Origin: Isoetes taiwanensis
Lineage: Eukaryota > Streptophyta > Lycopodiopsida > Isoetales > Isoetaceae
Assembly: GCA_021234155.1 (NCBI GenBank)
Contig: JAJEKV010000011.1
Span: forward strand, 9,775,712 to 9,839,711
Reading direction: 5' to 3'
Length of the DNA stretch: 64,000 nt
Under the pieces are notes generated by a model. That model was given only the letters and a program-made list of their open reading frames with translations. It was not told the origin of the DNA and did not search any database. The translations under genes and the position numbers were made by a program. Below, one piece after another: positions 3,661 to 64,000 of the stretch. The first letter of the stretch is position 1, and each line of letters begins with the position of its first letter.

Positions 3661-4690
3661 GACGGCCCAGATGTGTCGCGTGGGCGGACGGCCCAGATTT
3701 ATGCAGGACCCCTGTGTCAGTACAGTGAAACGGGACCGGAGGACGGTATTTTCACCTCCGGGATCCTCGAAACCAGAGTAAGCTCGATAGACCAGAGTAA
3801 ACTATCCTGAGCCTTCTAGGCATAGTAAGCTCGATAGAGACATTTACTAACTAAAGAAACAAAAGATGACAAGGATAAAGTTAGCTAGCTCATCTAAGTT
3901 GTTATTCTGAGATACAGATTGAGAAATCACATGTACCATATTTGGCTCTTTAAGCCATACTTACATGCCACCATTTATGTTTTTTCCTTAAACCCCTCGG
4001 GGATGTCACATCTAGACTTGAACTGCAAAAAGATGTAAAAGCTATAGTATATAGAACAAGATAAGGGAAAGATTCAAAGGTGCAAAACATTTGAAAAGAT
4101 GCAAAGGTGCAAAACATTTGAAAATACTTACTAACATGTCTTAATACCACCAGAAAAATCCCGCCTTTACTTCTCCTAGCTGCTCACTGAGCACCAGTGG
4201 CTTTTGATTTACCACCAAATCACGTGTTTCTGCCTCACCTGCAGCCAGAGAACTGCATTTGATTTTTGAAGCAGGATTTGTCACAGGCCTGCGCATGATT
4301 ATCAATAAGATTAAAAATAATACGCAAACAATGAAATTGCATGCCCTTACATTTTAGAATATACGATCCTTTTCTCCTTTTCTTCTGACTTTGCTCTTCA
4401 GAAGGACAAACAGGTTTTTCCGTATCAGATCTGAGACTTTTTGGCTGCAAATTGTTTGGAGGCAAATTGTTTTGGGCGGGATGGAATGGAGCGTGGCTAT
4501 GGCAGCCACATGTTCTGACGCTGCTATGGAAAAGGATGATCTGACGCTGTTGCCACATGTCCAGGGCTGTAAATGGATTAGGGCTGTAAATGGAAAAAGA
4601 CTGTACTGTAAATGGAAAAAGGCTGCACGTAAAAAAGGTCCTGAGACTAATTTGAAACCTGCGCACCTATAATAAGAATCCAAAGGTGCC
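3661..4690. other. Upstream region of the F-box gene, no gene seen
   Basis: This roughly 1-kb stretch has no convincing coding sequence. It contains short internal duplications (GGTGCAAAACATTTGAAAA twice near 4,080-4,125, and GGGCTGTAAATGGA twice near 4,565-4,595). The promoter of the gene at 4,700 should lie here, but I cannot point to a convincing TATA box. Confidence 0.35.
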
Positions 4691-4699
4691 TCAGACTCT

Positions 4700-33687: not shown

Positions 33688-34080
33688 TTATGATCTTGGT
33701 TGACCAAGATCGAGCATTGACCATCTTCCAGTAGTACTAAGCCATCACTAGAGATGTGCATCCTTCCACTTAGGTCTGGGATTAAACCCCGATTCCTTGC
33801 CCTCGTGGCCTGAGACTGTTGCATGCAGGCCTGTGATGTCCTCACGTCTGTAGGGAGCTGCACACATGCATGTGCTGTTCCCGCAGCTTCATAACCGTTT
33901 CCCTGAAACTAGGCCACCGTTTACTGGTTACTGTCTAAAGCCCTCTGGTCCTAGGATGCCCAAAAAGTCATATGTGGCAGGCGGCACTAGGCTGGTGACG
34001 CTAGGTTCGGCGATGCCCCTAGAGTTGCCCCTAGGATCCGAAAACTTCCTCAAGGTGGGATTTAATCCTGCCTACAAAGT

Positions 34081-34190
34081 GTGCATGTATGGCCAAAGTT
34101 TTGCCCAACGGATGTGTGGTGAGTTGGTATAGGCCTAGTAATGCCAAAATAAATGTGCACTTGGTCTGGGGTTCAAACCCGGCCATTAAT
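34081..34190 (+). promoter_or_regulatory. tRNA-like internal pol III promoter (first satellite unit)
   Basis: This is a representative copy of the A-box/B-box pair found in nearly every unit. The D-arm-like part has GGT/GCC pairing around GAGTTGGTATAG. The T-arm-like part pairs GGG with CCC around TTCAAA. The anticodon-like region between (AATGCCAAAATAAATGTGCAC) does not fold as a proper anticodon arm, so this is tRNA-derived rather than a functional tRNA. Whether it is transcribed is unknown. Confidence 0.5.
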
Positions 34191-43100: not shown

Positions 43101-46100
43101 ACCCGGCCGGTGTATGTTTATATTTGGGAGTTGGTTCTTTGGGGTTATCGGCCATGATCCCCGGCGTGGTAGAACTTAAAAGCCTATACATGTCCTCCAC
43201 TTTGGTCGCTCGTTGGCGATGGGGACAAAAACTAGCTAGTCTGTCAAAAGACTAGTCTAGACCAAGAAAAGTTGGTTTTACAGACATCGTGGCTGGTTTA
43301 TTGGTTCTTGTCTAAAGCCCTCTGGTCCTAGGATGCCCAAAAAGTCATATGTGGCGGCGGCACTAAAAACGCTAGGTTCGGCGATGCCCCTAGAGTTGCC
43401 CCTAGGATCCGAAAACTTCCTCAAGGTGGGATTTAATCCACGCCTACAAAGTGTGCATGTATGGCCAAAGTTTTGCCCAAATGGATGTGTGGTGAGTTGG
43501 TATAGGCCTAGTAATGCCAAAATAAATGTGCACTTGGTGGGGGTTCAAACCCGGCCGGTGTATGTTTATATTTGGGAGTTGGTTCTTGGGGTTATCTGGC
43601 CATGATCCCCGGCGTGGTAGAACTTAAAAGCCTATACATGTCCTCCACTTTGGCTTTCGTTGGCGATGGGACAAAAACTAGCTAGTCTCAAAAGACTAGT
43701 CTAGACCAAATAAAAGTTGGTTTCACTGATTCATGTGGCTGGTTTCTTGGTTCTTGTCTAAAACCCTCCGGGTCCTAGGATGCCCAAAAGTCATATGTGG
43801 CGGTGGCACTAGGCTGGACGCAGCTAGGTTGGGCGATGCCCCTAGAGTTGCCCCTAGGATCCAAAACTTCCTCAAGGTGGGATTTAATCCTGCCTACAAA
43901 GTGTGCATGTATGGCCAAAGTTTTGCCCAATGGATGTGTGGTGAGTTGGTATAGGCCTAGTAATGCCAAAATAAATGTGCACTTGGTGGGGGTTCAAACC
44001 CGCGGTGTATGTTTATATTTGGGAGTTGGTTCTTGGGGTTATCTGACCCATGATCCCCGACGTGGTAGAACTTAAAAGCCTATACATGTCCTCCACTTTG
44101 GCTGCTCGTTGGCAGTGGGACAAAAACTAGCTAGTCTGTCAAAAGACTAGTCTAGACCAGTAAAAGTTGGTTTACAGATTACTGTGGCTGGTTTACTGGT
44201 TACTGTCTAAAGCCCTCTGGTCCTAGGATGCCCAAAAAGTCATATGTGGCAGGCGGCACTAGGCTGGTGACGCTAGGTTCGGCGATGCCCCTAGAGTTGC
44301 CCCTAGGATCCAAAACTTCCTCAAGGTGGGATTTAATCCTCGCCTACAAAAGTGTGCATGTATGGCCAAAGTTTTGCCCAACGGATGTGTGGTGAGTTGG
44401 TATAGGCCTAGTAATGCCAAAATAAATGTGCACTTGGTGGGGGTTCAAACCCGGCGGTGTATGTTTATATTTGGGAGTTGGTTCTTGGGGTTATCGGCCA
44501 TGATCCCCAACGTGGTAGAACTTAAAAGCCTATACATGTCCTCCACTTTGGCTGCTTTCGTTGGCGATGGGACAAAAAACTAGCTAGTCGTCAAAAGACT
44601 AGTCTAGACCAATAAAAGTTGGTTTGGACATCGTGGCTGGTTTCTTGGTTCTTGTCTAAAGCCCTCCCGGTCCTAGGATGCCCAAAAAGTCATATGTGGC
44701 AGGCGGCACTAGGCTGGTGACGCTAGGTTCGGCGATGCCCCTAGAGTTGCCCCTAGGATCCGAAAACTTCCTCAAGGTGGGATTTAATCCTGCCTACAAA
44801 GTGTGCATGTATGGCCAAAGTTTTGCCCAACGGATGTGTGGTGAGTTGGTATAGGCCTAGTAATGCCAAAATAAATGTGCACTTGGTGGGGGTTCAAACC
44901 CGGCCCGGTGTATGTTTATATTTGGGAGTTGGTTCTTGGGGTTATCACGGCCATGATCCCCGGCGTGGTAGAACTTAAAAGCCTATACATGTCCTCCACT
45001 TTGGCTTTGGTTGGCGATGGGACAAAAACTAGCTAGTCTGCGTCAAAAGACTAGTCTAGACCATAAAAGTTGGTTTACTGATTCTTGTGGCTGGTTTCTC
45101 GGTTCTTGTCTAAAGCCCTCGGTCCTAGGATGCCCAAAAGTCATATGTGGCAGGCGGCACTAGGCTGGTGACGCTAGGTTCGGCGATGCCCCTAGAGTTG
45201 CCCCCTAGGATCCGGAAAACTTCCTCAAGGTGGGATTTAATCCTGCCTACAAAGTGTGCATGTATGGCCAAAGTTTTGCCCAACGGATGTGTGGTGAGTT
45301 GGTATAGGCCTAGTAATGCCAAAATAAATGTGCACTTGGTCAAACCCGACGGTGTATGTTTATATTTGGGAGTTGGTTCTTTGGGGTTATACGGCCATGA
45401 TCCCCAAGCGTGGTAGAACTTAAAAGCCTATACATGTCCTCCACTTTTGCTGCTTTCGTTGGCGATGGGACAAAAACTAGCTAGTCTGTCAAAAGACTAG
45501 TCTAGACCAATAAAAGTTGGTTTCTGATTCTTTGGCTGGCTGGTTTACTGCTTGTCTAAAGCCCTCTGGTCCTAGGATGCCCAAAAAGTCATATGTGGCA
45601 GGCGGCACTAAGGCTGGTGGCGCTTAGGTTCGGCGATGCCCCTAGAGTTGCCCCTAGGATCCGAAAACTTCCTCAAGGTGGGATTTAATCCTGCCTACAA
45701 AGTGTGCATGTATGGCCAAAGTTTTGCCCAACGGATGTGTGGTGAGTTGGTATAGGCCTAGTAATGCCAAAATAAATGTGCACTTGGTGGGGGGTTCAAA
45801 CCCGGCGGTGTATGTTTATATTTGGGAGTTGGTTATTGGGGTTATACGGCCATGATCCCCGACGTGGTAGAACTTAAAAGCCTATACATGTCCTCCACTT
45901 TGGCTGCTCGTTGGCAGTGGGACAAAAACTAGCTAGTCTGTCAAAAGACTAGTCTAGACCAGTAAAAGTTGGTTTACAGATTACTGTGGCTGGTTTACTG
46001 GTTACTGTCTAAAGCCCTCTGGTCCTAGGATGCCCAAAAAGTCATATGTGGCAAAAGGCACTAGGCTGGTGGCGCTTAGGTTCGGCGATGCCCCTAGAGT

Positions 46101-48089
46101 TGCCCCTAGGATCCGAAAACTTCCTCAAGGTGGGATTTAATCCTGCCTACAAAGTGTGCATGTATGGCCAAAGTTTTGCCCAACGGATGTGTGGTGAGTT
46201 GGTATAGGCCTAGTAATGCCAAAATAAATGTGCACTTGGTGGGGGTTCAAACCCGGCGGTGTATGTTTATATTTGGGAGTTGGTTCTTGGGGTTATCTGG
46301 CCATGATCCCCGACGTGGTAGAACTTAAAAGCCTATACATGTCCTCCACTTTGGCTGCTCGTTGGCAGTGGGACAAAAACTAGCTAGTCTGTCAAAAGAC
46401 TAGTCTAGACCAGTAAAAGTTGGTTTACAGATTACTGTGGCTGGTTTACTGGTTACTGTCTAAAAAGCCCTCTGGTCCTAGGATGCCCAAAAGTCATCAT
46501 ATGTGGCGGCGGCACTAGGCTGGTGGCGCTAGGTTCGGCGATGCCCCCAGAGTTGCCCCTAGGATCCTAAAACTTCCTCAAGGTGGGATTTAATCCCGCC
46601 TACAAAGTGTGCATGTATGGCCAAAGTTTTGCCCAACGGATGTGTGGTGAGTTGGTATAGGCCTAGTAATGCCAAAATAAATGTGCACTTGGTCGGGGTT
46701 CAAACCCGGCCGGTGTATGTTTATATTTGGGAGTTGGTTCTTGGGTTATATCTGCCATGATCCCGCGTGGTAGAACTTAAAAGCCTATACATGTCCTCCA
46801 CTTTGGCCGTTGGCGATGGGACAAAAACTAGCTAGTCCGTCAAAAGACTAGTCTAGACCAAGATAAAGTTGGTTTACGACATCGTGGCTGGTTTTCTAAA
46901 CCCTCTCTGGTCCTAGGATGCCCAAAAGTCATATGTGGCGGCGGCACTAGGCTGGTGGCGCTTAGGTTCGGCGATGCCCCTAGAGTTGCCCCTAGGATCC
47001 GAAAACTTCCTCAAGGTGGGATTTAATCCTGCCTACAAAGTGTGCATGTATGGCCAAAGTTTTGCCCAACGGATGTGTGGTGAGTTGGTATAGGCCTAGT
47101 AATGCCAAAATAAATGTGCACTTGGTGGGGTTCAAACCCGACCAGTGTATGTTTATATTTGGGAGTTGGTTCTTGGGGTTATCTGACCCATGATCCCCGC
47201 GTGGTAGAACTTAAAAGCCTATACATGTCCTCCACCACGGCTCATTGGCGATGGGACAAAAACTAGCTAGTCCAAAAGACTAGTCTAGACCAATAAAAGT
47301 TGGTTTACTGATTCATTTTATTCGTGGCTGGTTTCTTTGGTTCTTGTCTAAAGCCCTCTGGTCCTAGGATGCCCAAAAAGTCATATGTGGCGAGGCACTA
47401 GGCTGGGTGGCGCTTAGGTTCGGCGATGCCCTAGAGTTGCCCCTAGGATCCAAAAAACTTCCTCAAGGTGGGATTTAATCCTGCCTACAAAGTGTGCATG
47501 TATGGCCAAAGTTTTGCCCAATGGATGTGTGGTGAGTTGGTATAGGCCTAGTAATGCCAAAATAAATGTGCACTTGGTCGGGGTTCAAACCCGGCCAGTG
47601 TATGTTTATATTTGGGAGTTGGTTACTGGGGTTATACGGCCATGATCCCCGACGTGGTAGAACTTAAAAGCCTATACATGTCCTCCACTTTGGCTGCTCG
47701 TTGGCAGTGGGACAAAAACTAGCTAGTCTGTCAAAAGACTAGTCTAGACCAGTAAAAGTTGGTTTCCGGTCCTAGGATGCCCAAAAAGTCATATGTGGTG
47801 GCTTTTTCTTGGTTCTTGTCTAAAAGCCTCCTCGGTCCTAGGATGCCCAAAAAGTCATATGTGGCAAAGGTGCACTAGGCTGGTGACGCTAGGTTCGGCG
47901 ATGCCCCTAGAGTTGCCCCTAGGATCCGAAAACTTCCTCAAGGTGGGATTTAATCCTGCCTACAAAGTGTGCATGTATGGCCAAAGTTTTGCCCAACGGA
48001 TGTGTGGTGAGTTGGTATAGGCCTAGTAATGCCAAAATAAATGTGCACTTGGTCGGGGGTTCAAACCCGCCGGTGTATGTTTATATTTG

Positions 48090-48580
48090 GGAGTTGGTTC
48101 TTTATTCATGATCCCCGACGGTTAAAAGCCTATACATGTCCTCCACTTTGCCATGATCCCCGAAAACGCTAGGTAGAACTTAAAAGCCTATACATGTCCT
48201 CCACCCTTTGGCCCAAAAAGTTGGCGGTGGGACAAAAACTAGCTAAAGTCATATGTCAAAAGACTAGTCTAGACCCCTAGAGTTTCCCCTAGGATAAAAG
48301 TTGGTTTTAATCCTCGCCATTGCATGTATGGCCAAAGTTTTGCCCATCGGATGTTAGTTGGTATAGGCCGCCTAAAGCCCTGCACTTGGTCCTAGGATGC
48401 CCAAAATGTTTATATTTGGGAGTTGGTTCTATTATCATGGCCATGTGGCTCTCGTTGGCTGATGGGACAAAAACTAGCTAGTCACTAGTCTAGACGAAGA
48501 AAAGTTGGTTTCCCTAGAGTTCTAAAGCCCTCCCTAGGATGCCCAAAAGTCATATGTGGCAATAGGGCGGGTGGCGCTTA
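48090..48580. repeat. Scrambled satellite segment
   Basis: Short pieces of the satellite unit appear out of order and joined at odd points: ATGATCCCCGACG, GTTAAAAGCC, then CCATGATCCCCGAAAACGC, a CTCCACCCTTTGGCCC junction, and CCTAGAGTTTCCCC placed after the hairpin. The A box, B box and TTTT are damaged or missing here. Confidence 0.8.
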
Positions 48581-51500
48581 GGTTTCGGCGATGCCCCTAG
48601 AGTTGCCCCTAGAATCCGAAAACTTCCTCAAGGTGGGATTTAATCCTGCCTACAAAGTGTGCATGTATGGCCAAAGTTTTGCCCAACGGATGTGTGGTGA
48701 GTTGGTATAGGCCTAGTAATGCCAAAATAAATGTGCACTTGGTCGGGGGTTCAAACCCGGCCAGTGTATGTTTATATTTGGGAGTTGGTTACTGGGGTTA
48801 TACGGCCATGATCCCCGACGTGGTAGAACTTAAAAGCCTATACATGTCCTCCACTTTGGCTGCTCGTTGGCAGTGGGACAAAAACTAGCTAGTCTGTCAA
48901 AAGACTGGTTACTGTCTAAAGCCCTCTGGTCCTAGGATGCCCAAAAAGTCATATGTGGCAGGCGGCACTAGGCTGGTGACGCTAGGTTCGGCGATGCCCC
49001 TAGAGTTGCCCCTAGGATCCGAAAACTTCCTCAAGGTGGGATTTAATCCTGCCTACAAAGTGTGCATGTATGGCCAAAGTTTTGCCCAACGGATGTGTGG
49101 TGAGTTGGTATAGGCCTAGTAATGCCAAAATAAATGTGCACTTGGTCGGGGGTTCAAACCCGGCCAGTGTATGTTTATATTTGGGAGTTGGTTACTGGGG
49201 TTATACGGCCATGATCCCCGACGTGGTAGAACTTAAAAGCCTATACATGTCCTCCACTTTGGCTGCTCGTTGGCAGTGGGACAAAAACTAGCTAGTCTGT
49301 CAAAAGACTAGTCTAGACCAGTAAAAGTTGGTTTACAGATTACTGTGGCTGGTTTACTGGTTACTGTCTAAAGCCCTCTGGTCCTAGGATGCCCAAAAAG
49401 TCATATGTGGCAGGCGGCACTAGGCTGGTGACGCTAGGTTCGGCGATGCCCCTAGAGTTGCCCCTAGGATCCGAAAACTTCCTCAAGGTGGGATTTAATC
49501 CTGCCTACAAAGTGTGCATATATGGCCAAAGTTTTGCCCAACGGATGTGTGGTGAGTTGGTATAGGCCTAGTAATGCCAAAATAAATGTGCACTTGGTCG
49601 GGGGTTCAAACCCGGCCAGTGTATGTTTATATTTGGGAGTTGGTTACTGGGGTTATACGGCCATGATCCCCGACGTGGTAGAACTTAAAAGCCTATACAT
49701 GTCCTCCACTTTGGCTGCTCGTTGGCAGTGGGACAAAAACTAGCTAGTCTGTCAAAAGACTAGTCTAGACCAGTAAAAGTTGGTTTACGTGATTCGTGGC
49801 TGGTTTCGCTTGTCTAAAAGCCCTCCTGGTCCTAGGATGCCCAAAAGTCATATGTGGCGGCGGCACTAGGCTGGTGACGCTTAGTTCGGGCGATGCCCCT
49901 AGAGTTGCCCCTAGGATCCGAAAACTTCCTCAAGGTGGGATTTAATCCCCTGCCTACAAAGTGTGCATGTATGGCCAAAGTTTTGCCCAACGGATGTGTG
50001 GTGAGTTGGTATAGGCCTAGTAATGCCAAAATAAATGTGCACTTGGTGGGGGGTTCAAACCCGGCGGTGTATGTTTATATTTGGGAGTTGGTTATTGGGG
50101 TTATAATGCCATGATCCCCGACGTGGTAGAACTTAAAAGCCTATACATGTCCTCCACTTTGGCTGCTCGTTGGCAGTGGGACAAAAACTAGCTAGTCTGT
50201 CAAAAGACTAGTCTAGACCAGTAAAAGTTGGTTTACAGATTACTGTGGCTGGTTTACTGGTTACTGTCTAAAGCCCTCTGGTCCTAGGATGCCCAAAAAG
50301 TCATATGTGGCAGGCGGCACTAGGCTGGTGACGCTAGGTTCGGCGATGCCCCTAGAGTTGCCCCTAGGATCCGAAAACTTCCTCAAGGTGGGATTTAATC
50401 CTGCCTACAAAGTGTGCATGTATGGCCAAAGTTTTGCCCAACGGATGTGTGGTGAGTTGGTATAGGCCTAGTAATGCCAAAATAAATGTGCACTTGGTCG
50501 GGGGTTCAAACCCGGCCAGTGTATGTTTATATTTGGGAGTTGGTTCTTTGGGGTTATCGGCCATGATCCCCGACGTGGTAGAACTTAAAAGCCTATACAT
50601 GTCCTCCACTTTGGCTGCTTTCGTTGGCGATGGGACAAAAACTAGCTAGTCTGTCAAAAAGACTAGTCTAGACCAGATAAAAGTTGGTTTCTGATTCTCG
50701 TGGCTGGTTTCTTGGTTCTTGTCTAAAGCCCTCTGGTCCTAGGATGCCCAAAAGTCATATGTGGCAGCGGCACTAGGCTGGTGACGCTTAGGTTCGGCGA
50801 TGCCCCTAGAGTTGCCCCTAGGATCCAAAACTTCCTCAACGTGGGATTTAATCCGCCTACAAAGTGTGCATGTATGGCCAAAGTTTTGCCCAACGGATGT
50901 GTGGTGAGTTGGTATAGGCCTAGTAATGCCAAAATAAATGTGCACTTGGTCGGGGGTTCAAACCCGGCCAGTGTATGTTTATATTTGGGAGTTGGTTACT
51001 GGGGTTATACGACCATGATCCCTGACGTGGTAGAACTTAAAAGCCTATACATGTCCTCCACTTTGGCTGCTCGTTGGCAGTGGGACAAAAACTAGCTAGT
51101 TTGTCAAAAGACTAGTCTAGACCAGTAAAAGTTGGTTTCTGATTCTCGTGGCTGGTTTATCGGTTACCGCCTAAAGCCCTCCTCGTCCTAGGATGCCCAA
51201 AAAGTCATATGTGGCAGGCGGCACTAGGCTCGTGACGCTAGGTTCGGCGATGCCCCTAGAGTTGCCCCTAGGATCCGAAAACTTCCTCAAGGTGGGATTT
51301 AATCCTGCCTACAAAGTGTGCATGTATGGCCAAAGTTTTGCCCAACGGATGTGTGGTGAGTTGGTATAGGCCTAGTAATGCCAAAATAAATGTGCACTTG
51401 GTCAGGGGTTCAAACCTGGCCAATGTATATTTATATTTGGGAGTTGGTTACTGAGGTTATACGATAATGATCCCCGGCGTGGTAGAACTTAAAAGCCTAT

Positions 51501-52783
51501 ACATGTCCTCCACTTTGGCTGCTCGTTGGCAGTGGGACAAAAACTAGCTAGTCTGTCAAAAGACTAGTCTAGACCAGTAAAAGTTGGTTTACAGATTACT
51601 GTGGCTGGTTTACTGGTTACTGTCTAAAGCCCTCTGGTCCTAGGATGCCCAAAAGTCATATGTGGCAAAGCGGCACTAGGCTGGTGACGCTAGGTTCGGC
51701 GATGCCCCTAGAGTTGCCCCTAGGATCCGAAAACTTCCTCAAGGTGGGATTTAATCCCGCGCCTACAAAGTGTGCATGTATGGCCAAAGTTTTGCCCAAC
51801 GGATGTGTGGTGAGTTGGTATAGGCCTAGTAATGCCAAAATAAATGTGCACTTGGTCTGGGGTTCAAACCCGGCCATGTATGTTTATATTTGGGAGTTGG
51901 TTCTTGGGGTTATCTGCCATGATCCCCGCGTGGTAGAACTTAAAAGCCTATACATGTCCTCCACTTTGGCTGCTTTCGTTGGCGATGGGACAAAAACTAG
52001 CTAGTCCGTCAAAAAGACTAGTCTAGACCAAGAAAAGTTGGTTTACTGATTCATCGTGGGCTGGTTTCTTGGTTCTTGTCTAAAGCCCTCCGGTCCTAGG
52101 ATGCCCAAAAGTCATATGTGGCGGGCACTAGGCTGGTGACGCTAGGTTCGGCGATGCCCCTAGAGTTGCCCCTAGGATCCGAAAAACTTCCTCAACGTGG
52201 GATTTAATCCCGCCTGCCTAAAGTGTGCATGTATGGCCAAAGTTTTGCCCAACGGATGTGTGGTGAGTTGGTATAGGCCTAGTAATGCCAAAATAAATGT
52301 GCACTTGGTCGGGGTTCAAACCCGCCGGTGTATGTTTATATTTGGGAGTTGGTTCTTGGGGTTATAATGACCATGATCCCCGACGTGGTAGAACTTAAAA
52401 GCCTATACATGTCCTCCACTTTGGTCGCTTTCGTTGGCGATGGGACAAAAACTAGCTAGTTTGTCAAAAGACTAGTCTAGACCAATAAAAGTTGGTTTAC
52501 TGACATCGCGTGGCTAGTTTTATGGTTCTTGCCTAAAGCCCTCTCGGTCCTAGGATGCCCAAAGGTCATATGTGGCAGGCGGCACTAGGCTGGTGACGCT
52601 AGGTTCGGCGATGCCCCTAGAGTTGCCCCTAGGATCCGAAAACTTCCTCAAGGTAGGATTTAATCCTGCCTACAAAGTGTGCATGTATGGCCAAAGTTTT
52701 GCCCAACGGATGTGTGGTGAGTTGGTATAGGCCTAGTAATGCCAAAATAAATGCGCACTTGGTCGGGGGTTCAAACCCGGCCA

Positions 52784-55700
52784 CAGTTGGTGTACCGTAC
52801 TGACGCGAATTCTGCACTGAAAGGAAAGCAAACCCTAGAAAAATTCTACTTTGACTACGAGGCACAACTTCCATATCCTAGTGGTTGCCCTGGTTGGTGT
52901 TTGGCTAGCATACACAAGATGTAAACAACGTCACTACTATGAATGTGACTTGCACATCCATGAGAGTCTTCACAAATGTCCAGTATGTGAGATTCTTTTG
53001 GATCCTTCTAGCTAGTCTTGTCATGTAACTCGCTATAAACACTTGTCTTGAGCTTACACTTGTAATAGTCAGCATCGCCATCTCAATGCACACTTAGAAT
53101 TTTTGTTGAGGGTATAACGAACAGCAAATTGGTTCCTGCTATTAGCTTCTACGATCTTTTTCTTCTGGCTAAAAACAACATTACCTGAAGTTAAATATTG
53201 GATGTGGGGACTACTTGTACGGACGCTTGTAGGATATAGATGTAATCACGTGGGAAGTTCGCATGCATTAGTGTTCAAATCTTTAACCCGAATGTTCATC
53301 CATTTTGCACTCTTTTATTGTTTTAGGCCTTCCAAAATCTTTGCTTTAAAAGTAATATCAGTTTATGTTTGTGAGTAAAAATGCAAGGAGATCTGACTAT
53401 TTCAATGCACAAGTAGTTGACATTTGATTGATGATAGGTCACATTCAACAATAGAAATTACATAAAAAAATTAGCACACACACTATCATTTCTCCAAAAA
53501 TTTACCATCAATTTCTTTAGTCGTAAACCATTATGTCACTTCTTAAAAATAGACCATGGGTCGCTTCTATGTTTAGCTTATATTATCTTTTTGGGTTGCC
53601 CCTAAAGGGCAAACTCTCGTCCATGTGGCTATAAAAATTACTCACGGGGCACATGGAATTTGTCTCAGTGATTAGTAATGGCATCGATCCGAGCCCTCGG
53701 ATCGTTATTCTGGGACGGGACGAGAAGCTATATATGTGCTCATCATTCTTGTTGCTAGTTATCGACGTCTTCTCACAACAGCATCTCTTTCCTCGTCCAT
53801 TGCTTCATCTCTGATCCCTTTTTTTTTTTTTTTTTTTTGCTTCATCTCTGATCTTTACAGCCTATTTCCACCTTGTTCTTTTGTTTCTTTCCTTAGCCTT
53901 ATAGCCTATTCCCGATCTGGTGTTGTCACTCATTCCGAGCCCAAGACTTTTGTTCCTATTGTCGGTTTCTTTCTCTACATGTTGGTGGATCATCTAGTAG
54001 ATAGAATTTGAAGGATTTGGAATTATTGATAAAATTTTGGGGATTTTGGAGCCATATAGACCCATCTTTCCTTTCATCTTTGCTTTGAAATTAGTTTGAA
54101 AGCCATGCATCATAGGTTCTTTTGTTAATCTTGATCATACAGATATCAATGCGTTTGGTGATGAATTTGAAATTTGAGGGATTTCACATAGATAGATCTT
54201 TGGGGGATTTGGATCATATAGATGGATCTTTGCTTTGACATTGATATGAAAGTCATGCATCATATTTCTTTTGTTAATTTGTTGCAGTTTCTTTTTGCGC
54301 AGGCTGGAGATAAGTTTTTCACATTAGCAAGTTCTTTATCTATGATCGTAGATAGAGCGCATGCTGGATCAGATTAGGTGATGTGGCTAAGATTCTTGGA
54401 TCTGATCATATCAGATCAGGCATAGACTTTGGATTCCTGCTGAGATTATCAGTACATGCGACATCCAGCTGGAAGGGGTATCTATTGATGCGATGATTCT
54501 TCTCGGCCTGGAGCAATCTGCTGCTTCTCTGTCCCGTACTCTTTGATTATGCAGTTTCTTGTGCCTAGCCTATTTACATGGAAGATTGATCTTCTCTGTA
54601 GGAACTTTAAAAACGGCCAAAAACATCCATTGATGGAGAAGCTCTGACCCATGTAGATGTGTGCTTTTGCAAGAAAAGCATCTTTTCTTGCATGATCCAC
54701 AGATTTGATTCTTGCCCATCTCATCTCTTAAGCAATTTCGGCCATCTTGGTTCAAGAGTAGCCCTTCCAGACAGATCCCGACCTGACCCATCACGATTTA
54801 GGTGCAGATTCTTCCCTTCAATCCATTTTTTGACGGACTTTTGCGGATTCAAATACATACTATTCTTCCTATTCATGCATCCCCTGACCAAATAAAAACT
54901 CTCTTCCCCAAATTTGGCCCCTTTCAAGACATTTCGACATGACCCATATGCCGTTTGCCTTTTAAGCTCGCTTTCTTTCAAGTCTTCTGATCCAACACAG
55001 AAATCAATGATTTTACAGTTGTGGGTGCTCTAAATAAGGAAGATACATGCCAGATTATCCATAACCCTCATCAAATTTGAGTATGATTAGTCCACATACA
55101 ATCCAATTTCCAATTTGAGCTTTCATTCTTCTGTAAAGAATATTATCTTGTACCCCATCTAGTAGATCAAAGTAATCACATAATTAACTCTTTGAAATCT
55201 GAGTAACCTGAGTGACAGTAACCTGAGTGACAGAATGGGCTGAGGTGGTTGAATCATTATACAGGCGATGTGGCAGAACAGAGGATAATATTGCAATTGA
55301 AAAGTAACATAGACAAGATGAAAAGGAAATGAACAAAAAGAGCAGATAAAGGTTAGCACAAGTCGTGCAACCACTTCCACTTGGATACTTTTTTATAAAG
55401 TGAATGAACTCTTTGGAGCAATGAAAAAGGAGATAGTTTAGGTACTTAAAGAGAGGCAGTCACAGAGAATTGGGTGGTGATGAGGGGTGGATTCACGCTA
55501 TAGTGGATCAGTTTTGGTGTCCCCCATGTCCCCCCCCAAATAGCTTAAAAGTATAGCTTGTATTTGTGGTTTAAGAAATGCATTTGTGGTTTGAGAATTT
55601 GTATAACATTGATTACGTTGATGCCTTTTCCAGTAACCGATGAGTAATTCTAATAATAACCAACCACTTCATTAATGCTGGAGGGAATTTTTTCAAATGC

Positions 55701-55792
55701 TCAAACGGTGGAAACGTAGAGGGAGTTTGTTCCTCATTCTTTTGCTCAGTATTATTTTGGTAAGTCTACAGTGTGAAGCACATTTCTGAAAA
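52784..55792. other. Gene-poor region between satellite and nested transposon
   Basis: No convincing gene is present in these 3 kb. Points of note: a poly-T bounded by a 16-bp direct repeat at 53,801-53,853; a TATA-like GCTATATATGTGC at about 53,727 with no obvious gene behind it; two loosely related blocks at 54,050-54,270 (GATCTTTG, AAGCCATGCATCATA and AAGTCATGCATCATA); a short duplication, GTAACCTGAGTGACAG, at 55,203-55,234; and a C run near 55,530. The left end of the outer transposon (whose frame starts at 55,793) should lie in the last few hundred bp, but I could not define it. Confidence 0.4.
53801..53853. repeat. Poly-T insert bounded by a 16-bp direct repeat
   Basis: TGCTTCATCTCTGATC occurs at 53,801-53,816 and again at 53,838-53,853. 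Between them is only CC plus about 19 T. This is the shape of a target-primed retroinsertion in which almost nothing but the poly(A) tail was copied. Confidence 0.7.
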
Positions 55793-56363
55793 ATGGAGGA
55801 GAAAGATGTATTCTTAGATATGGCAGATGAAGAAATCCAGAACATCCAGAATGAAGATCCATTTGTTAGAGTGAGTTTGAGATCATTGTTGAAAGAAATT
55901 CAATCTGGGGAAGTTTTAGATTGTGGTTTAGAACATGCAACTATTTCTAGTGTCAATCTTGAGAATGCAGATGATATATCAATCGGTCATGATCCTAGTA
56001 TTGTGGACAATACTATAAAGAATATCAAGAAGAGAAAAAAGAGAGATACAGAGCAAGAACGTCTGAAGAAACAAAGACAGAGAAAAAGACAAAAAGAAGC
56101 TAATGAGGCATTGGTGAAGATTGGAGGTCAAGATGGGTTGGATAAAAGTGGTGCAACAAAAAGGAGAGTAGTGTTAAACACCGTCAATTCATTCTTGAGG
56201 CAAACAAAAACAATGAATCTCCAGATTAAACGAGAAATATTGATTGATGTACTAGAACATAAAGCTATGGAAGAGATAGTTGGGGATCTCTTGAAGAATC
56301 TGGAAGCAAAAACAACCATAATAGATAATATCAGAGATTCAATCCATATCATGAAGCAATCAA
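55793..56363 (+). pseudogene. Outer transposase-like ORF, 5' part, interrupted by a transposon
   Basis: The frame starts MEEKDVFLDMADEEIQ and has 190 complete codons before the insertion point. It has an acidic N-terminus, a strongly basic helix (KKRKKRDTEQERLKKQRQRK, about residues 80-104, a likely nuclear-localisation or DNA-binding region), and a helical C-terminal part (EILIDVLEHKAMEEIVGDLL). At 56,364 a 7.4-kb element begins, and the frame would stop after two more codons (RV). Removing the element and one TSD copy lets the frame continue at 63,777 with no stop. The continuation contains a motif found near the N-terminus of the DFAENY-type transposase-like proteins, so this is probably a second member of that group. 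An unknown host gene remains possible. Confidence 0.7.
56360..56363. repeat. Target-site duplication TCAA (left)
   Basis: TCAA directly precedes the terminal repeat GGGTATAAAATCACT and recurs at 63,773-63,776 after the right terminus. It is a 4-bp duplication, and the reconstructed empty site keeps the host frame. Confidence 0.85.
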
Positions 56364-56393
56364 GGGTATAAAATCACTAGTCGGGTACAAAAA
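56364..56393. repeat. Left terminal inverted repeat
   Basis: It begins GGGTATAAAATCACT and then reads AGTCGGGTACAAAAA. It pairs with 63,743-63,772 on the opposite strand. Confidence 0.85.
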
Positions 56394-56497
56394 AACGCGA
56401 AAAAGCAAAGCAAAAAGCAAAGCAAAAGCAAACTTTTTCGGTTCACATTTCGGTTAGCTCCGGAATCAGAATTTTGGCGCCATAACTACCTCTGGCG

Positions 56498-56785
56498 ATG
56501 GCGATGAAGCTTTCTGACGAAGGAATGGTACCGCAGAAATGGATTAAATGGTTGGAGGATCAAATTACTGACGAGGATTGGGAATCAGTCTGGAATCATG
56601 GCTTCACTGACGGTAAAATTAAGAAATTTTATGTGAAGCCTCATTTAAAAGAACTGCTAGATTTTCTTATCTCAGAGCTTTATCCTCATGGTCTGGCGAA
56701 CAATGAGCTCAGGAAGAAATTTGCCTTTGCATTTACTTGGGAGAATTGTAGTCGAGCAGCTCTTAACCCGACGAACACAAGATAA
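56498..56785 (+). CDS. Hypothetical protein or exon inside the transposon
   Basis: A 95-codon frame, MAMKLSDEGMVPQKWIKWLE to NPTNTR, has a natural amino-acid mix with Trp-rich and acidic helices (WIKWLEDQITDEDWESVW, then LKELLDFLISELYPHGL). I do not recognise the domain. It lies 130 bp inside the left end, on the same strand as the captured HAD gene, and could be its first exon, a second captured fragment, or an accessory gene of the element. The sequence after it lacks an open continuation, but a small intron cannot be excluded. Confidence 0.45.
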   Translation: MAMKLSDEGMVPQKWIKWLEDQITDEDWESVWNHGFTDGKIKKFYVKPHLKELLDFLISELYPHGLANNELRKKFAFAFTWENCSRAALNPTNTR

Positions 56786-56989
56786 AGCTGGGTTTCATTT
56801 AAAGAACAAGTTGACAGTACCCAAGGAAGCTAGTTAAGCTCGAACCAAAACATTCCACACTGGCGAAACTTGACCTCTCTCGGTGGCGGCGGCGAAGAAC
56901 CACACCAAATCCCACACCATTGAAGCCAAGTAATGCAGGTTTACTCTCGGGCAAGTCTTTGTTCCTTTGCTAAAAAAACGTAGGTAGCT

Positions 56990-58375
56990 TAATTTTAATG
57001 TTAGGGTCTTGGATGAAGAAGTGAATAGGTTGGAGGGTGAATTTGAATTGTGCAAGAAAGATCCAGCGAACATTGCAAAGCAAGATCACCCTAAACGTAT
57101 ATGTGAATGAGAGAGATATTGCGGGGATCGAAGCAAGCGAGAGAAGACATAAGCGGGTTGCGGTGAGATCAATTTTTGGAATCCAAAGTAGAAAAGTCGA
57201 TTCGATAAGAAAAGAATTGAGGACTTGATGCGGGACTTGATGCGAGGAGAAATTCTATTGCAGGAAATTAGAGAGCCTTATTGAAAAGGTGGATGATCAT
57301 CAAGTTGAGAAGAAGAATGAATTGGAAGCATTACATGGAGTGCTAGAAAGGGACCTGCTCAAATGGAAGAATTACGGGGCTAATTGCTATAACTTGAGTA
57401 GTGTAAATGCCTCCCGTATTCAGTTCAAGTTATTGCAAAGCGAGGTTGCCATTGTGTTATGAAATACCATGTTCTCGCATGTGGATTAGCTTTCCAAGAT
57501 GACTACAAGATTAGTGCAAAGGCTACCATGCCAACATGCTTATCATTTAATTTGCAGCCCGCTTCTTGTAGAGAATAAAAATGCCCGGATTGTTCTATGG
57601 ATGTCCCAATGAAATTCTTTGAAGAACTTGGCTTAGAGACCAATGCAAATGAAGGAGAAGAAAAAGAAGAACAAAAGCGGAAGAATCATCTAAGAAAGTA
57701 AGTATTATTTATTTGCTTTGCTTTATTTGTGAAAATTGCTTTTGTTGAAAAGTTTTGGTCATGTTATTTGCGGGAAAAAGTTACCAACAAAAAAGGAAAC
57801 ATGATGACTATGTGGATTTAGATGAATTTGGTGAATTTGATGATGTGAATGAAGATCTTTGGTGATTCCCCGACCGCATATATGAAGGTATTTTAGAAAA
57901 TATTCCAAGTTCTTGAGGGAAGGAGCTTCTTTGGGAATTAAGAGCGTGTTGAGAAGAGCTACAATCAATATCAAGGAAACTAGCCTTGAACCTCAGCGAG
58001 ACTATTCTTCCTGATCCTGTAACTCCAACTCGGATATTCACATCGAATCTTTGTGGAACGGACAACTCCACCAGTTGTGGATCAGCAGGAGCTGGACAAA
58101 TTGGTGGTCACAATTGCGGATGCCACAAATGAGAATTACCAGCAGTGGATGAGCAAGACAAAGAAGCGTCGGGGAGGATGGAAGAGAAGTTCAAGAGGAT
58201 GCAACAAAGAATACACAATTCCAAGGAAGCGTCTTTGGCAGGCCAGCAAAAAAAAGAAGAAAGCAATCAAACCTATTCCCAAAGTAGTTCTTTGAGAAAG
58301 GTGCAAGTTACAAAAGGTGACAAACGCACTCCAATAGAAAGAATATTAGATGCCTATAATGGGAAGGGCTAAACT
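56990..58375 (+). pseudogene. Decayed coding pieces between the first ORF and the HAD gene
   Basis: Several short coding-like stretches in changing frames suggest broken exons of one plus-strand gene: DEEVNRLEGEFELCKKDP (about 57,015), EKVDDHQVEKKNELEALH (about 57,280), MPTCLSF and a CPDCSMDVPMKFFEELGLE stretch (about 57,585-57,640), and RMEEKFKRMQQRIHNSKE to PIERILDAYNGKG (about 58,175-58,371). Most are charged and helical or coiled-coil-like. The last ends at a stop about 220 bp before the HAD exon. I cannot assign a family. Frames shift often enough that either decay or sequence error is involved. Confidence 0.4.
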
Positions 58376-58594
58376 TTGAACACAGAAACCACTCAGTATT
58401 TGACATTGTCATATTTTCAATTTGTAAGATTTACATTAAAATAAAATCTTTTCTAAATATTAGAATCAGTAAACTTTTCATTAAAATAAAATGTTTTCAT
58501 TGAATATGTGAATCTGTAATCTTTTCATAGTTGACAATGTCATATCTTAGTTTGTGTCTAAAGTGTTTTTTAAAAATGTATCTCTTGTTTGTAG

Positions 58595-59272
58595 GGAGGC
58601 ACAAAGACAAACTGTTGGTCCTTGATTTGAATGGTGTGCTTATGAAGAGTTGGCATAAGCATGACAAACCTGAGAACACCAATACCGCAAATCAAGAAAC
58701 CGCATACACAACCAACAAAGTCTTTGGTTTGCGGACCAGGTTTGCATAATTTCATGGACTGGGCCCTAGAACATTTTGAAATTGCTATTTGGTCCAAGTA
58801 TGAACCGCTACAACATCATTGAGTGCCTGCGGCCGGATGTTGCTGCCAGATTATCTTATTAAGTTCAAGTTCATTTGGGAAGGAGCACAATGTTTGAAAT
58901 TGCCTTATCCACACCGACCAATCCGACAAAAGCCGGTCTATTTGAAGCCACTTTCTTATGTCATTGAAGCATATCCCGAAATGAAGAATGTCTTGTTGGT
59001 GGATGATTCTCTCAGATAAATCTTTTTTTCACCCGGTGTACCATTCTTTAATAGTTAGCTCATTTCAGTTTGATGAGGGCAATGAATGGTTTGAAAAGAT
59101 GAAGGATGTATTGTTTGGTTGGGCTGAAAGTCCCGAGCCTACAAAATTTGTGAAAGAACATCTTGCCCCGAAATTGTCAAACAAGAAGACTTTGATATTT
59201 TGGATTTGTGTTCCAAGCATGTGCGGGAGAATCCAAGATGGGCTATTCTGTGAAACGGTGCGGTTGCCATGA
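58595..59272 (+). pseudogene. Captured HAD/FCP1-type phosphatase-like gene, frameshifted
   Basis: An exon appears to begin after the acceptor TTTGTAG at 58,594. It opens with KDKLLVLDLNGVLMKS, the motif I of HAD phosphatases in the form seen in plant FCP1/NIF-like proteins (the second Asp of DxDx(T/V) is Asn; first Asp at about 58,624). Then come GLHNFMDWALEHFEIAIWSK (motif II region, 'W(S/T)s'), FKFIWEGAQC, KNVLLVDDS (motif III, VDD) and EWFEKMKDVLFGW...KFVKEHL (the usual C-terminal tail). All blocks are in the right order, but they lie in at least three frames, with shifts near 58,735, 58,800 and 59,010. Canonical members bind or dephosphorylate phosphoproteins; the DLN variant may not be catalytic. 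The gene faces the transposase and ends about 400 bp from its stop. Confidence 0.75.
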
Positions 59273-59284
59273 TGGAACTTCGGT

Positions 59285-59676
59285 AAGCAATTTATTTTTT
59301 GCTTGATTTGCTTGATTTGCTTGGCTTGCCATATCTTCTTACCTTAATCGGAGTTACGCTCTTGCGGGTTCCCCGAAGACAGTTGTGAGGCAATGGATGT
59401 TAAGGAATGTCAAGAAAAGTGTAAGATGTGAAAAAATACAGCTGGCAACCATAAAATTTTCTTCCTGGTTGCCACATTTTGAATGCACATCATTGTGCAA
59501 TGTAATGTTAGATGTGAATATACCTGGCATACATAAATTTTTTTCCCCTGGTTGCCAGATTTTGAATGCACATCATTGTGCACTCTATTGTAAACTGTTG
59601 TAACAATATCAATATGAATGTCAATGTTTTGTACTATGCACTTGTGAACTGAAACCCAAATCAGAGAGCATTGAAC
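59285..59676. repeat. Convergent intergenic segment with an 82-bp direct repeat
   Basis: The block CTGGTTGCCA(C/G)ATTTTGAATG, continuing CACATCATTGTGCA, occurs at about 59,466 and about 59,548. TTTGCTTGATTTGCTTG repeats precede it at 59,295-59,330. Both genes end here, so it probably holds their polyadenylation signals. Confidence 0.6.
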
Positions 59677-62600
59677 TCATTCCTGAACAGGTAAAGATGA
59701 CATGATTTTCCGGCGTGTCTCTTCTCCTAACATGTACATGTTGCCACCAATATCATTCATGTCAAACTTAACATGCCTTACCAAGTGGTCAGAATTGAAG
59801 CCACCGGGCTTGTCCACCAGCAATTGAAAAGTTAGAGTGTCTAATTGCTGATAGTAGTGGCCTGATACTATAACCTCTCCAACATTGTATACATTCCCCC
59901 ACTCATCAACATAAGAATCCAGCAATGTTTGCTTTGTCTCAGTACACTGCAGTAAGTAAAAGTCGACACCCTCATCATTATTTTCTTCTGCAGGTACAGC
60001 AAAGTTATCCCCAACTTCTAAGATGTCACTGAGGTAATCAAGCTCACCCTCATCATCATCATCTTCTTCTTCCTCCTCCTCATTGGATAATTTGTCTTCT
60101 GCATTCACTGGTTGTACTTCTTTTGGTTTTAATACACCTTCTTTCCAGCCTCCTATCCTTCTCTTGTTAATGCAATTATCCCAATCTCCATGAAAACATG
60201 CTTGGCAAAAACAAGCAAGGCATCTGGTACTCACTTTTGTTGGATCCTTCCTATCAAGTGCCCTAATGCTATGTAACTTTGAGCTCCCATTCAAAGTTTT
60301 CCATTCCTTCTTTTCAGACTTATCTATGTCCTTAGCTTCAATATTCCAAAAGTACCTGGAAAGCATTGACTCAAAGCAAGTTAATGCAAAAGCAAAGCAA
60401 AGCAAATTCAGAAAGCAAATGCAAGAGCAAATTGTTAGCAAAGATAATCAAAGCAGAAATCAAAAGTAATGAGACATCCACCTGGAATTGAATGAAAGCC
60501 AACATGCAGAGCAAATTTAATGAATGCAGAAAGCAAATGCAAAGCCAATTCAAAGCAAAGTTAGTCAAAGCATTAATCAAAGCAAAAGCAAAAAGCAAAA
60601 GCAAAAAGCAAAAGCATCAAAGCAATTCCATCGAGCAAAGATAATCAAAGCGTAAATCAAAAGTAATGAGACAACCACCGGAATTGAATGAAAGCCAAGA
60701 TAAATGCGAGAAAAGCAAATGCAGAGCAAATTTAATGAATGCAGAAAGCAAATGCAAAGCCAATTCAAAGCAAAGTTAGTCAAAGCATTAATCAAAGCAA
60801 AAGCAAAAAGCAAAAGCAAAAAGCAAAAGCATCAAAGCAATTCCATCAGAGCAAAGATAATCAAAGCAGAAATCAAAAGTAATGAGACAACCACCTGGAA
60901 TTGAATGAAAGCCAAGATAAATGCAGAAAGCAAATGCAGAGCAAATTTAATGAATGCAGAAAGCATATGCAAGGCCAATTCAAAGCAAAGTTAGTCAAAG
61001 CAAAAGCAAAAAGCAAAGCATCAAAGCAATTCCATCAAAGCAAACACTAGGCCAGCCTACCAGAAAATACCTCTTTTTTCATTGGCACAAGGATGGTTTT
61101 CAATGTACCATTTTAGGAATTCCACCGCATCCTTAGCACATTGCAGCTTCCAGGAATCATACTTCAGTTGCTCCTTTGCTAGAATTAATTTCAAAACAGC
61201 TCCAGCTCCATCATGTTCTCCTTTACCATGAGAACTTGCAAAAAAACACCATAAATATTCCAGAGTAGGATTGTTCACAAAATTTCTACCTATGTACCAG
61301 AAGGGTCTGGCACCTTTGAATTGAGATGTGCAACCATCACTCCAAAAAACATGGTTGCTGTACTCTATATTCATTTGTTTCAGCCACTGTGCATGGACTT
61401 TCAAGCAGTGGTTGACAAACTCAGTTGAATGCTCCTTGCAATCAAAATGTAAAATGTGTCTCCTTAATTATTCTTCGATCCATACACGAACTTGTTTCTC
61501 GATCCCGAACAAGATCTTTTGTGTTCCTAAATTCTTCCTCTTCCTTTTCTGTAGGATGTCTATAGGTAATGTGAACAAGAATAGTAATTTGGTCGGTATG
61601 CCAATGGCATGATTGTACTTCCTTCTGAATTTTGAGGCTATAGTTCTCAGCAAAATCAATTACTGATACAATAGTATTCTTTGGAAAGTTGGCTAAGCAT
61701 TGCTTAAATTGCTTTGCACATAATGTCTTAGATGTAATTATGTGGAACAAATTGCACAAGTGTCTTGTTGGCATACTTGAATAAACTCTTGTCTTGGAGC
61801 GAGACTTGTATGCTAATCTTGTGACTTTAGTTGGTTTTTTTCCTCCCTCTTACGAATTGAACTCTCTCCTTCAAATTACCGGGCTCTTGCTGCAATAATG
61901 CCAGAACAATTTGGTGATGTTAGGTCCTAAACAAGTTTCGAAAAAAGTAAATAACACTAAAACAAATTAATATACCTTCTCAAACTGTTTCCACTCAACA
62001 AAATGTCTTTCATTGTCTTTTCCTTTGGACAGATTGGCAATCTGAAAAGCTTCTAACGTTTGCTCATTTCCAAAATAGATATACATGAATGTTAAATGTA
62101 CCTTTTCAAACCACAAGATTTACAAGCAACCATCAGACAGGAATGCTTGTGCCATTCTTCTAAGGGATCTTGCTTTTCACATACAAGTTCCCTCCACAAC
62201 TCACTAGTAGACTTGTAAGTCATCAATTTAGCTTTGCATTCATCTCCTTCTCCACACACACTGCAATTGCAGGAACAATTTTCATGAACACCTCTAGGGT
62301 CTGTTCTTATTCTGTTCAGTGTTTGAAGAACAAATTCCAAATGGATGTGATAATTGGCAAAGGAAGAAGTTTCCCTCTCATGAAGTCTTCTAACAAATGA
62401 AGGCTTCAGCCTCTCAAATGTTTGTTGTGCAATGTTGATATGTGGATATTGTTGCTTGAAAGCCATATAGAACTGGAGCTGCAGACAACATGTAAAATTC
62501 ATTTTGTAATGCATAAAGCAAAATCATGAAAGTACTGAAACAATGAAGCAAATCAATCATAATAAGTAATTAATCAAAGATACTGAGACATTGCAGAATG

Positions 62601-62890
62601 CAAATTTATAAAGCAATAGGGACTGAAACAATGCAGATAGCAAATTCATACATAAAACATGTGAAGCATAAATTGTTCAACTTCAACATGAAAAGTTTTA
62701 TCAAACACTACAAATTAACAGCTGACCAGAAACATTCCAGATATAAATACCTGGGAGACCTCAAGCAAATGGATTGGATGGTCAACTTTATTGCCATTTT
62801 CTGTCTTAAACTTCCTCACATGTTTTTTGTATGGAGAAACTCTTGTGTTTTCAGTCCGAAAACTAGACAACCTTTTTTCACTTCATCAGC
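59677..62890 (-). pseudogene. Transposase-like gene (DFAENY / SDG..SQFK / SHGKG..DG type), multi-exon
   Basis: Reading from high to low coordinates: exon A ends at 62,751 (TENTRVSPYKKHVRK...LLEVSQ, donor CAG|GTATTT). Exon B is 62,478-62,102 (LQFYMAFKQQYPHINI, FERLKPSFVRRL, then a Cys-rich C.C.VCGEGDEC segment and C..C), acceptor CTGCAG|CTCC. Exon C, about 61,880-61,061, carries VSVIDFAENYSLKIQ (about 61,657), SDGCTSQFKG (about 61,338) and SSHGKGEHDGAGAVLKL. Exon D, 60,355-59,677, carries C.ACFCQACFHGDWDNC and a long acidic stretch. The phase-2 intron 60,356-61,060 fits GT-AG. The three Asp-containing blocks look like a DD(D/E) nuclease core; the Cys clusters are probably zinc-binding. This motif set is known to me from uncharacterised invertebrate transposon-like proteins. 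A frameshift near 61,445-61,500, and possibly others, breaks this copy. Confidence 0.7.
60468..61050. repeat. Intronic tandem repeat, three copies of about 197-216 bp
   Basis: Units begin AATGAGACA(A/T)CCACC at 60,469, about 60,666 and about 60,882. They are rich in AAAGCAAAAGCAAAAAGC and AATGCAGAAAGCAAATGC. The third unit is truncated. The array fills most of the transposase intron 60,356-61,060 and shares the AAAGCAA word with both transposon ends. Confidence 0.85.
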
Positions 62891-63239
62891 GCCGGAAATC
62901 GGACCTTTTCTTCCTCAAAACATAGACCGGGGACCTGATTCCCTTTACGCCATTACTCTTCTTCTATAGGCTGCACAAATAGATTTTCTAGGCACTTCAA
63001 GCAGCACAGCTCTTTAGAAATGATTAAGTTTATTCTCGTGGATGTAACCATTTGTAAAGTTGACCTTTTCTTTGCCGAATGTCAATCTTTACGGTTCGTT
63101 TGTGTACCGCATAGTTTCCTTCACATTAGCAATCACTTTTTGCATAACCTTTGTCTCTCTTTTTGTGCGCAACGCTTACTTGTAAAGGTACATTTGGTTT
63201 TATCTTTCTTACAAATCATCCACAATAGCGACCTTATCT

Positions 63240-63713
63240 AAAGCATTGGCATGTTTTGTCGGATCCTCAAAATAATCATGCATATCCTTTGAAATCTCCT
63301 GAATTCTTCTCACACCGAGGCTTAATTCTTTGGAATTAGCAGTGGCTTCCATCAATTCCCTTTTTGCGTTTCCTTGATTCCCTCTTTACGGCAAAAGATC
63401 AATTTCCACGAAAAAAATCAGTCTCTTCTCATCTTCATCCATTCAAATTATGAATATGAGAAACTCCAATCCGATGATTCTCCACCGTAACCAAATTAGA
63501 GAATGGCAAGAGGGGCAGTTCCCCCGCCAACCTGCCTCCTTCAATTTCGCAATTACACTCCATCATTCCTCCCGCCAAAGCCAACCGTAACTGATTCCCC
63601 AATAATCGGACAGCCATGTCATCGATCCGTAGGAGTGATCGAGTTTGGGGGGAATTCACAGTTCGCTGTGTGCTGAGAAGAACGAGCAAAGCAATTCGAT
63701 AAAGCAAAAGCAA
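63240..63713 (-). pseudogene. Coding-like remnants near the right end of the transposon
   Basis: Minus-strand pieces look protein-coding but are out of frame with each other. One is MAVRLLGNQLRLALAGGMME with a stop at 63,435. The other, at about 63,240-63,400, reads LMEATANSKELSLGVRRIQE then ISKDMHDYFEDP and VAIVDDL. They lie where the first exon of the transposase would be expected, but do not resemble the outer ORF. They may be its 5' exons or a further captured gene. Not recognised. Confidence 0.35.
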
Positions 63714-63742
63714 AGCAAAGCAAGCAGACGTCCGGACACTAC

Positions 63743-63772
63743 TTTTTCAACCCCACGAGTGATTTTATACCC
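63743..63772. repeat. Right terminal inverted repeat
   Basis: It ends AGTGATTTTATACCC, the reverse complement of the left terminus; the inner half is 11 of 15 identical. TCAA follows at 63,773-63,776. Confidence 0.85.
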
Positions 63773-63776
63773 TCAA

Positions 63777-64000
63777 CTAGTCTAGATTGTATGGCTGCTA
63801 AAAAATCTTGTTTAGCAATGGCAATAGGCAATGAACAGAAAAGCAGCTACAGAAAAATGGGAAAAGTTCTTGATGCTGCAAAGAGAGACAAATTTGAGAT
63901 AAATTGCAATTCAGGAAAATGGGTGTACTATAGAAGGGGAAGAAGATGTGATTCCATTTCTGATTCTGTCATTGCTCTTGTACAGGATTTTTGGATTTCT
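63777..64000 (+). pseudogene. Outer transposase-like ORF, 3' continuation (partial at window edge)
   Basis: Removing the inserted element and one TCAA joins 56,363 to 63,777 within one codon (A + CT = Thr). It then gives 74 further codons without a stop, to the window edge. The piece includes SYRKMGKVLDAAKRDKFEIN and, near the end, VIALVQDFWIS. The '(V/I)..DFW' element stands just before the first conserved block in DFAENY-type transposase-like proteins, and the inserted element's exon A starts close to the same point. The frame presumably continues beyond the window. Confidence 0.75.

Follow-up and report, generated by a model that had tools for sequence, protein, structure and literature searches.

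In a window of 64,000 nucleotides from the lycophyte Isoetes taiwanensis (assembly GCA_021234155.1, contig JAJEKV010000011.1, positions 9,775,712 to 9,839,711; C919:9775712-9839711 in our searches), a DNA transposon of 7409 bp lies inside another one. Very probably, this inner element is a young two-gene transposon nested in the first transposase exon of an outer transposon of the same superfamily, and the apparent decay of its interior is mostly assembly error. A sequence-only reading of the window had proposed that a transposon with matching ends and a TCAA duplication split an open reading frame. This is indeed what we find, as many other copies of the outer repeat are unbroken and show the empty site; the kinship of the two elements is new relative to that reading. 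The features are collected in Table 1.

Insertion site, ends and empty sites

The ends of the inner element match in inverted orientation over 26 of 30 bp, and the first 15 bp are identical. When one end was shuffled 100,000 times, no shuffle reached this value and the best gave 20, and a search of the window for the 15-bp terminus, with up to two mismatches allowed, finds it at both element ends and nowhere else. Terminal inverted repeats (TIRs), a fixed-length 4-bp target duplication and an empty site are features of cut-and-paste DNA transposons, and all of them are present here. Joining the flanks in silico with one TCAA restores, as predicted, a single frame that stays open for 265 codons (795 nt). 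The earlier argument that such a continuation is unlikely by chance stood only in part. The 76-codon open frame of the right flank was matched in just 19 of 20,000 base shuffles of that flank, but 98 of 2552 places sampled in the window are open over the same length, so that openness alone is moderate evidence for a split frame. The matter is settled independently by the other copies of the outer repeat.

For these we searched the plant's own assembly (1,658,258,908 bases, 1110 contigs) and scored the best 40 of 126 left-flank and the best 40 of 114 right-flank candidates. Among them, 23 flank pairs show a gap of exactly 0, and the single separated pair is the window copy, with 7413 bases (7409+4) between the flanks. 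None of the 23 joined copies carries the 7.4 kb as an integral part of the repeat. Ten outer loci were inspected, which represent nine places (L011 is identical with L040), and the flanks abut base to base in nine of the ten; at L037 some bases next to the junction are unaligned. Copy L035 gives an uninterrupted reading across the junction. The outer copy of the window lacks 21 bp, in frame, at about 63875, which are present in the other outer copies read.

The inner family was searched by its ends, with the best 40 of 67 left-end and the best 40 of 72 right-end candidates scored. Window copy included, 33 of the 40 left ends are identical over 101 bp and 26 of the 40 right ends over 100 bp. 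The ends combine into 28 left-right pairs with spans of 3860-8977 bp, mostly near 7.4 kb. Twenty copies were fetched: an exact 4-bp duplication, of no fixed motif, flanks 15 of them, which lie at different places, and 18 carry the exact 15-bp terminus at both ends, while L024 has one mismatch at its right end and the right end of L023 is absent. Because the ends are nearly identical between copies, the sequences argue for a young element. The claim of a recent insertion is thereby supported, but its original basis, the intact outer frame, says little about age, because this frame is a transposase exon of a near-identical repeat at a seemingly accurately assembled junction. A young cut-and-paste transposon would have inserted into the outer element, hitting its first transposase exon with a staggered target cut of 4 bp. 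One of the 20 other copies, L025, also adjoins a related transposase, as found by searching short flanks.

Some further observations concern the family as such. Seven copies are internally deleted with both ends kept (L015, L016, L018, L024, L028, L031, L032) and are likely non-autonomous derivatives. The element in L014 (866-8300) is flanked by perfect 8-bp inverted arms, GAGATCAC-CGTA-GTGATCTC. Between the transposase exons lies a tandem repeat rich in AAAGC, where the alignments break, which suggests that its copy number differs among the inner copies.

Table 1. Features of the inner and outer transposons in the window, in order of position.
Feature	Position	Strand	Basis
Left part of the outer transposon, with terminus GGGTGGATTCACGC at 55485	55485..56363	+	match starts in ten outer loci
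Left part of the first coding exon of the putative outer transposase, interrupted	55793..56362	+	open reading frame; unbroken in other copies
Left target-site duplication TCAA	56360..56363	.	read at junction
Inner 7409-bp transposon	56364..63772	.	ends, duplications, copies, empty sites
Left terminal inverted repeat	56364..56393	+	26/30 match with right end
Inner gene 2, N-terminal piece	56486..56785	+	open here; opens 218-aa frame in copy L032
Inner gene 2, coiled-coil and RING-like region, frame broken here	57192..57719	+	own-genome RING-exon match; PF13639 E=0.0014
Inner gene 2, domain like NIF/FCP1 phosphatases, with broken frame here	58570..59016	+	own-genome match; PF03031 in L023
Putative inner transposase, C-terminal exon (CFC-x2-C region)	59677..60447	-	29% to outer C-terminus, E=4e-22
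Tandem repeat of 215 bp between transposase exons, 2.4 copies	60494..61002	.	tandem-repeat finding
Putative inner transposase, catalytic exon, D, D, E (VIDFAENY / FWSDGC / HGKGEHDG)	61057..61849	-	open reading frames, family alignment
Putative inner transposase, Cys-rich exon	62092..62523	-	26% to outer exon, E=1e-13
N-terminal exon of the putative inner transposase, open in L025 but broken in this copy	62757..63400 (approximate)	-	homology to outer
Right terminal inverted repeat	63743..63772	-	26/30 match with left end
Right target-site duplication TCAA	63773..63776	.	read at junction
Putative outer transposase, split exon continued	63777..64000	+	joined frame, homology; extends beyond window edge in L041

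Two related transposases and a second gene

The matches of the ten outer loci start at 55484-55485 in nine cases and at 55487 in one, and the outer terminus is found at the corresponding place in all ten, once with 2 mismatches. By homology, the split frame is the predicted first transposase exon of a related transposon, and the inner and outer transposases are homologous in four segments. The N-terminal segments share 44 of 120 residues (E=2e-21), the outer residues starting six codons to the right of the junction; the catalytic exons match at E=2e-19, and the Cys-rich and C-terminal exons match as given in Table 1. BLASTP gave no match between the left half of the split outer exon and the inner N-terminal exon, and the right end of the outer element was not found within 5 kb to the right.

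A tblastn search of the plant's own genome with the inner transposase exon gave 8683 first-look candidates; here, and for the exons of the second gene, the best 150 at most were scored, and 146 matches are listed for the transposase. In a catalytic alignment of five families, the other four being 53-63% identical to the first, D90, D197 and E237 are invariant, and third codon positions are the most changed in 21 of 21 pairwise comparisons of seven transposase exons. The frame of the catalytic exon is broken in places in the window copy and forms a single open frame in L043 and L045. The transposase would use an RNase-H-like core with invariant D, D, E (or D). Compared with Pfam, NCBIfam and PHROGs, the transposase had no convincing match, a profile search of the PDB returned nothing up to E=10, and no relatives were found in IMG/VR, in GTDB genomes or among plasmids. 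Two candidates were set aside: a Pfam beta-propeller match in one of five members (E=7.6e-05), taken as chance and perhaps, as a guess, due to a lysine-rich run, and two phage matches to a capsid protein at E=1.

The second gene (gene 2) converges on the transposase. Other inner copies have its exons open; the one with coiled coil and RING-like region is so in L021 and L020, and the RING-like region resembles the RING of Arkadia at E=0.0035. The NIF domain PF03031 is recognized in inner copy L023 with 50.2 bits (curated cut-off 21.8; E=2.9e-13) and in the one exon of another family that was fetched (L062) with 53.5 bits (E=2.9e-14). Motif I of NIF phosphatases usually holds a second Asp, in the place of which gene 2 has Asn. 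With D-x-N-G-V as motif I in the two NIF exons that were compared, phosphatase activity of the gene 2 product seems doubtful. Third codon positions are the most changed in both NIF comparisons, only slightly above first positions.

Is gene 2 a standard part of such elements? NIF-domain proteins are ordinary in eukaryotes, UBLCP1 was the single solved relative found (E=0.0017), and a NIF gene was not found in the 5 kb read to the right of the outer element (best E 0.053), all of which would suit a host gene fragment captured by a single family (transduplication). We regard such a capture as very improbable in view of the abundance and the layout of the gene. The NIF exon gave 5005 first-look candidates in the plant's own genome, with other families 40-53% identical and with long open frames; the RING exon gave 1945, with other families 34-38% identical. 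After dropping inner-family and partial rows, 126 transposase and 93 NIF rows remained, and among the matches listed all 26 transposase-NIF pairs of other families within 10 kb are convergent, where a rough model of chance expects about 0.15. In 26 of the 50 RING rows a NIF exon follows downstream, less than 10 kb away and on the same strand, and none is otherwise arranged; the distance is 1.27-1.50 kb in 23 of the 26 pairs. Rows without a partner among the best-scoring matches are uninformative either way. The two-gene layout, in which a predicted RING and NIF gene converges on the transposase, recurs in families that are only 34-67% identical. Because no NIF match was seen in the 5 kb of the outer element, gene 2 may not belong to every family, or may lie farther right in that element.

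As a working part of the transposon, the protein with coiled coil, RING-like and NIF-like regions could be a nuclear helper, perhaps a targeting factor or a ubiquitin-ligase scaffold. The scaffold is favored over an active phosphatase because of the altered motif I in both families read; the helper role as a whole is possible yet doubtful.

Copy differences and assembly errors

Many frames inside the inner element are broken, and the reading of its age depends on whether these changes are real. We compared 13 full-length inner copies, namely that of the window and 12 of those fetched, which were selected by their left ends. Their interiors carry about 4-6 events per 100 bp off the 13-copy majority, the first 100 bp none, and many variants are common to at least three of the 13 copies, as one would expect of an old, decayed family of which only the ends were kept by selection for mobility. 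The distribution of the differences makes this decay very improbable. The difference rate is 15.0% within 2 bases of CG or CHG and 1.5% elsewhere. Columns with at least three deviating copies lie near CHG in 339 of 493 cases (679 of 4668 invariant columns) and near CG in 155 of 493 (275 of 4668). Differences are most frequent at the middle base of CHG (27-37%), while the middle bases of CTT, CAT and CTA differ in just 0.2-0.4%. Cytosine deamination cannot act on the CHG middle base. Moreover, the fraction of CG/CHG sites in error, which is 0 at the left end and 0.06 at the right, climbs to about 0.55 within roughly 500 bp of the ends, and the right end shows a gradient similar to the left despite the selection by left ends. 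Of the shared-site pairs separated by at least 1000 bases, 79% do not pass the four-gamete test. Away from CG/CHG, just 167 of 36,656 bases are off the majority; isolated changes number 45.

Because the differences centre on CG/CHG, peak at the CHG middle base and fade towards the element ends, most frame breaks and copy differences inside both elements look like assembly error at these sites. Methylated cytosine is a cause of such base-calling errors. In support of the error model, L043 and L045 have open frames where the window copy is broken. A column-majority reading of the 13 copies did not restore the long frames throughout, and individual copies were used instead. According to the cited passages of the assembly paper, the genome (1658.30 Mb, 204 scaffolds and 909 contigs) was built from Nanopore v9.4.1 reads with miniasm and racon and polished with pilon and Illumina 2x150 reads (PMC8566536). 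The error pattern fits an imperfectly polished Nanopore assembly: we infer that short reads could be placed only near the unique flanks and that the interiors retain base-calling errors. With interior decay that is mostly assembly error at methylated CG/CHG, the family would be younger and more intact than its sequence suggests. The same passages describe hybrid scaffolding and gap filling (PMC8566536), from which one might suspect that the split frame is a join of two unrelated contigs, yet this is extremely improbable, as the 4-bp duplication and the element ends at the join are exact, as in other copies, and the window has no run of N.

Several observations weigh against the account given here. 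Control triplets outside CG/CHG also differ more than CTT, CAT and CTA do, namely CAA in 2.9% and GAG, GTG and GAC in 1.1-1.8%. The breakpoint test of internally deleted inner copies (L015 and L031 left out) was mixed, with fewer differences beside unique deletion breakpoints in several copies and not in L024, and the outer copies show only a rough error gradient. Five of the 20 inner copies have no exact 4-bp duplication (L019, L021, L031, L027 with 3 bp, and L023). The RING-H2 match of gene 2 to PF13639 stays below the curated cut-off (19.3 against 27.3 bits), and both genes are seen inside one pair of element ends in the inner family only. Two AlphaFold models of the transposase are poor (mean pLDDT 41 and 37), and a fold search of the PDB gave nothing at E<=0.001, the top matches being Argonaute/PIWI and RNase HII at E>=0.007. 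The order of strands and helices in the first model would be RNase-H-like, with weak fold matches, which is a hint only.

Relation to known elements and implications

Kolobok elements are cut-and-paste transposons with 4-bp duplications of TTAA, while none of the 16 duplications here (15 copies and the window) is TTAA. MULEs are known for captured or accessory genes. A non-transposase gene within the element is likewise described for Sola2-Fanzor elements in the cited part of that work (PMC3627910). Our element shares this trait, but its gene 2 does not vary by family and recurs in diverged ones in the same convergent arrangement. Sola transposons, as far as the cited passages go, have 4-bp duplications and inverted ends of 11-1124 bp, are mostly 2-9 kb long and occur in a moss (PMC10741241), and Sola2 has AT-rich 4-bp duplications and a long transposase (PMC3627910). 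By duplication length and size alone, the inner element looks Sola-like in outline, with its TIRs of about 30 bp and end pairs of 3860-8977 bp; it differs in its core, which is D-D-E or D-D-D as against the DDD type of Sola1/2/3, and in that these descriptions of Sola mention no RING-NIF second gene. With UBLCP1/FCP1-type NIF phosphatases, gene 2 shares a PF03031 match above the curated cut-off, and it differs from them in being mobile and highly numerous, in its RING exon upstream and in the Asn of motif I. Among titles and abstract starts of the open-access papers searched, none dealt with the inner element or described a transposon that carries a NIF gene.

Elsewhere in the window, positions 33919-52783 hold a long array in which a unit of roughly 452 bp is repeated in tandem about 36 times, in five blocks, and a 415-aa open frame at 4676-5923 with an F-box (PF12937, E=9.7e-07) is likely a host gene.

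As a nested insertion the case is unremarkable; what deserves attention is the arrangement of the two genes and the pattern of errors. We tentatively suggest that the elements may form an undescribed DDE superfamily, very abundant in this lycophyte, whose autonomous unit would hold two convergent genes, one for a transposase and one for a RING and NIF-phosphatase-like protein needed for transposition or steering it, and whose CG/CHG errors would mark dense methylation. A recurring gene of RING and phosphatase-like type in an abundant kind of plant transposon makes a helper or host-targeting function testable. Furthermore, where a Nanopore assembly shows decayed transposable elements, much of the apparent decay can come from base-calling errors at CG/CHG sites, which would spoil the dating of elements as well as the calling of pseudogenes and of autonomy in assemblies of this kind.

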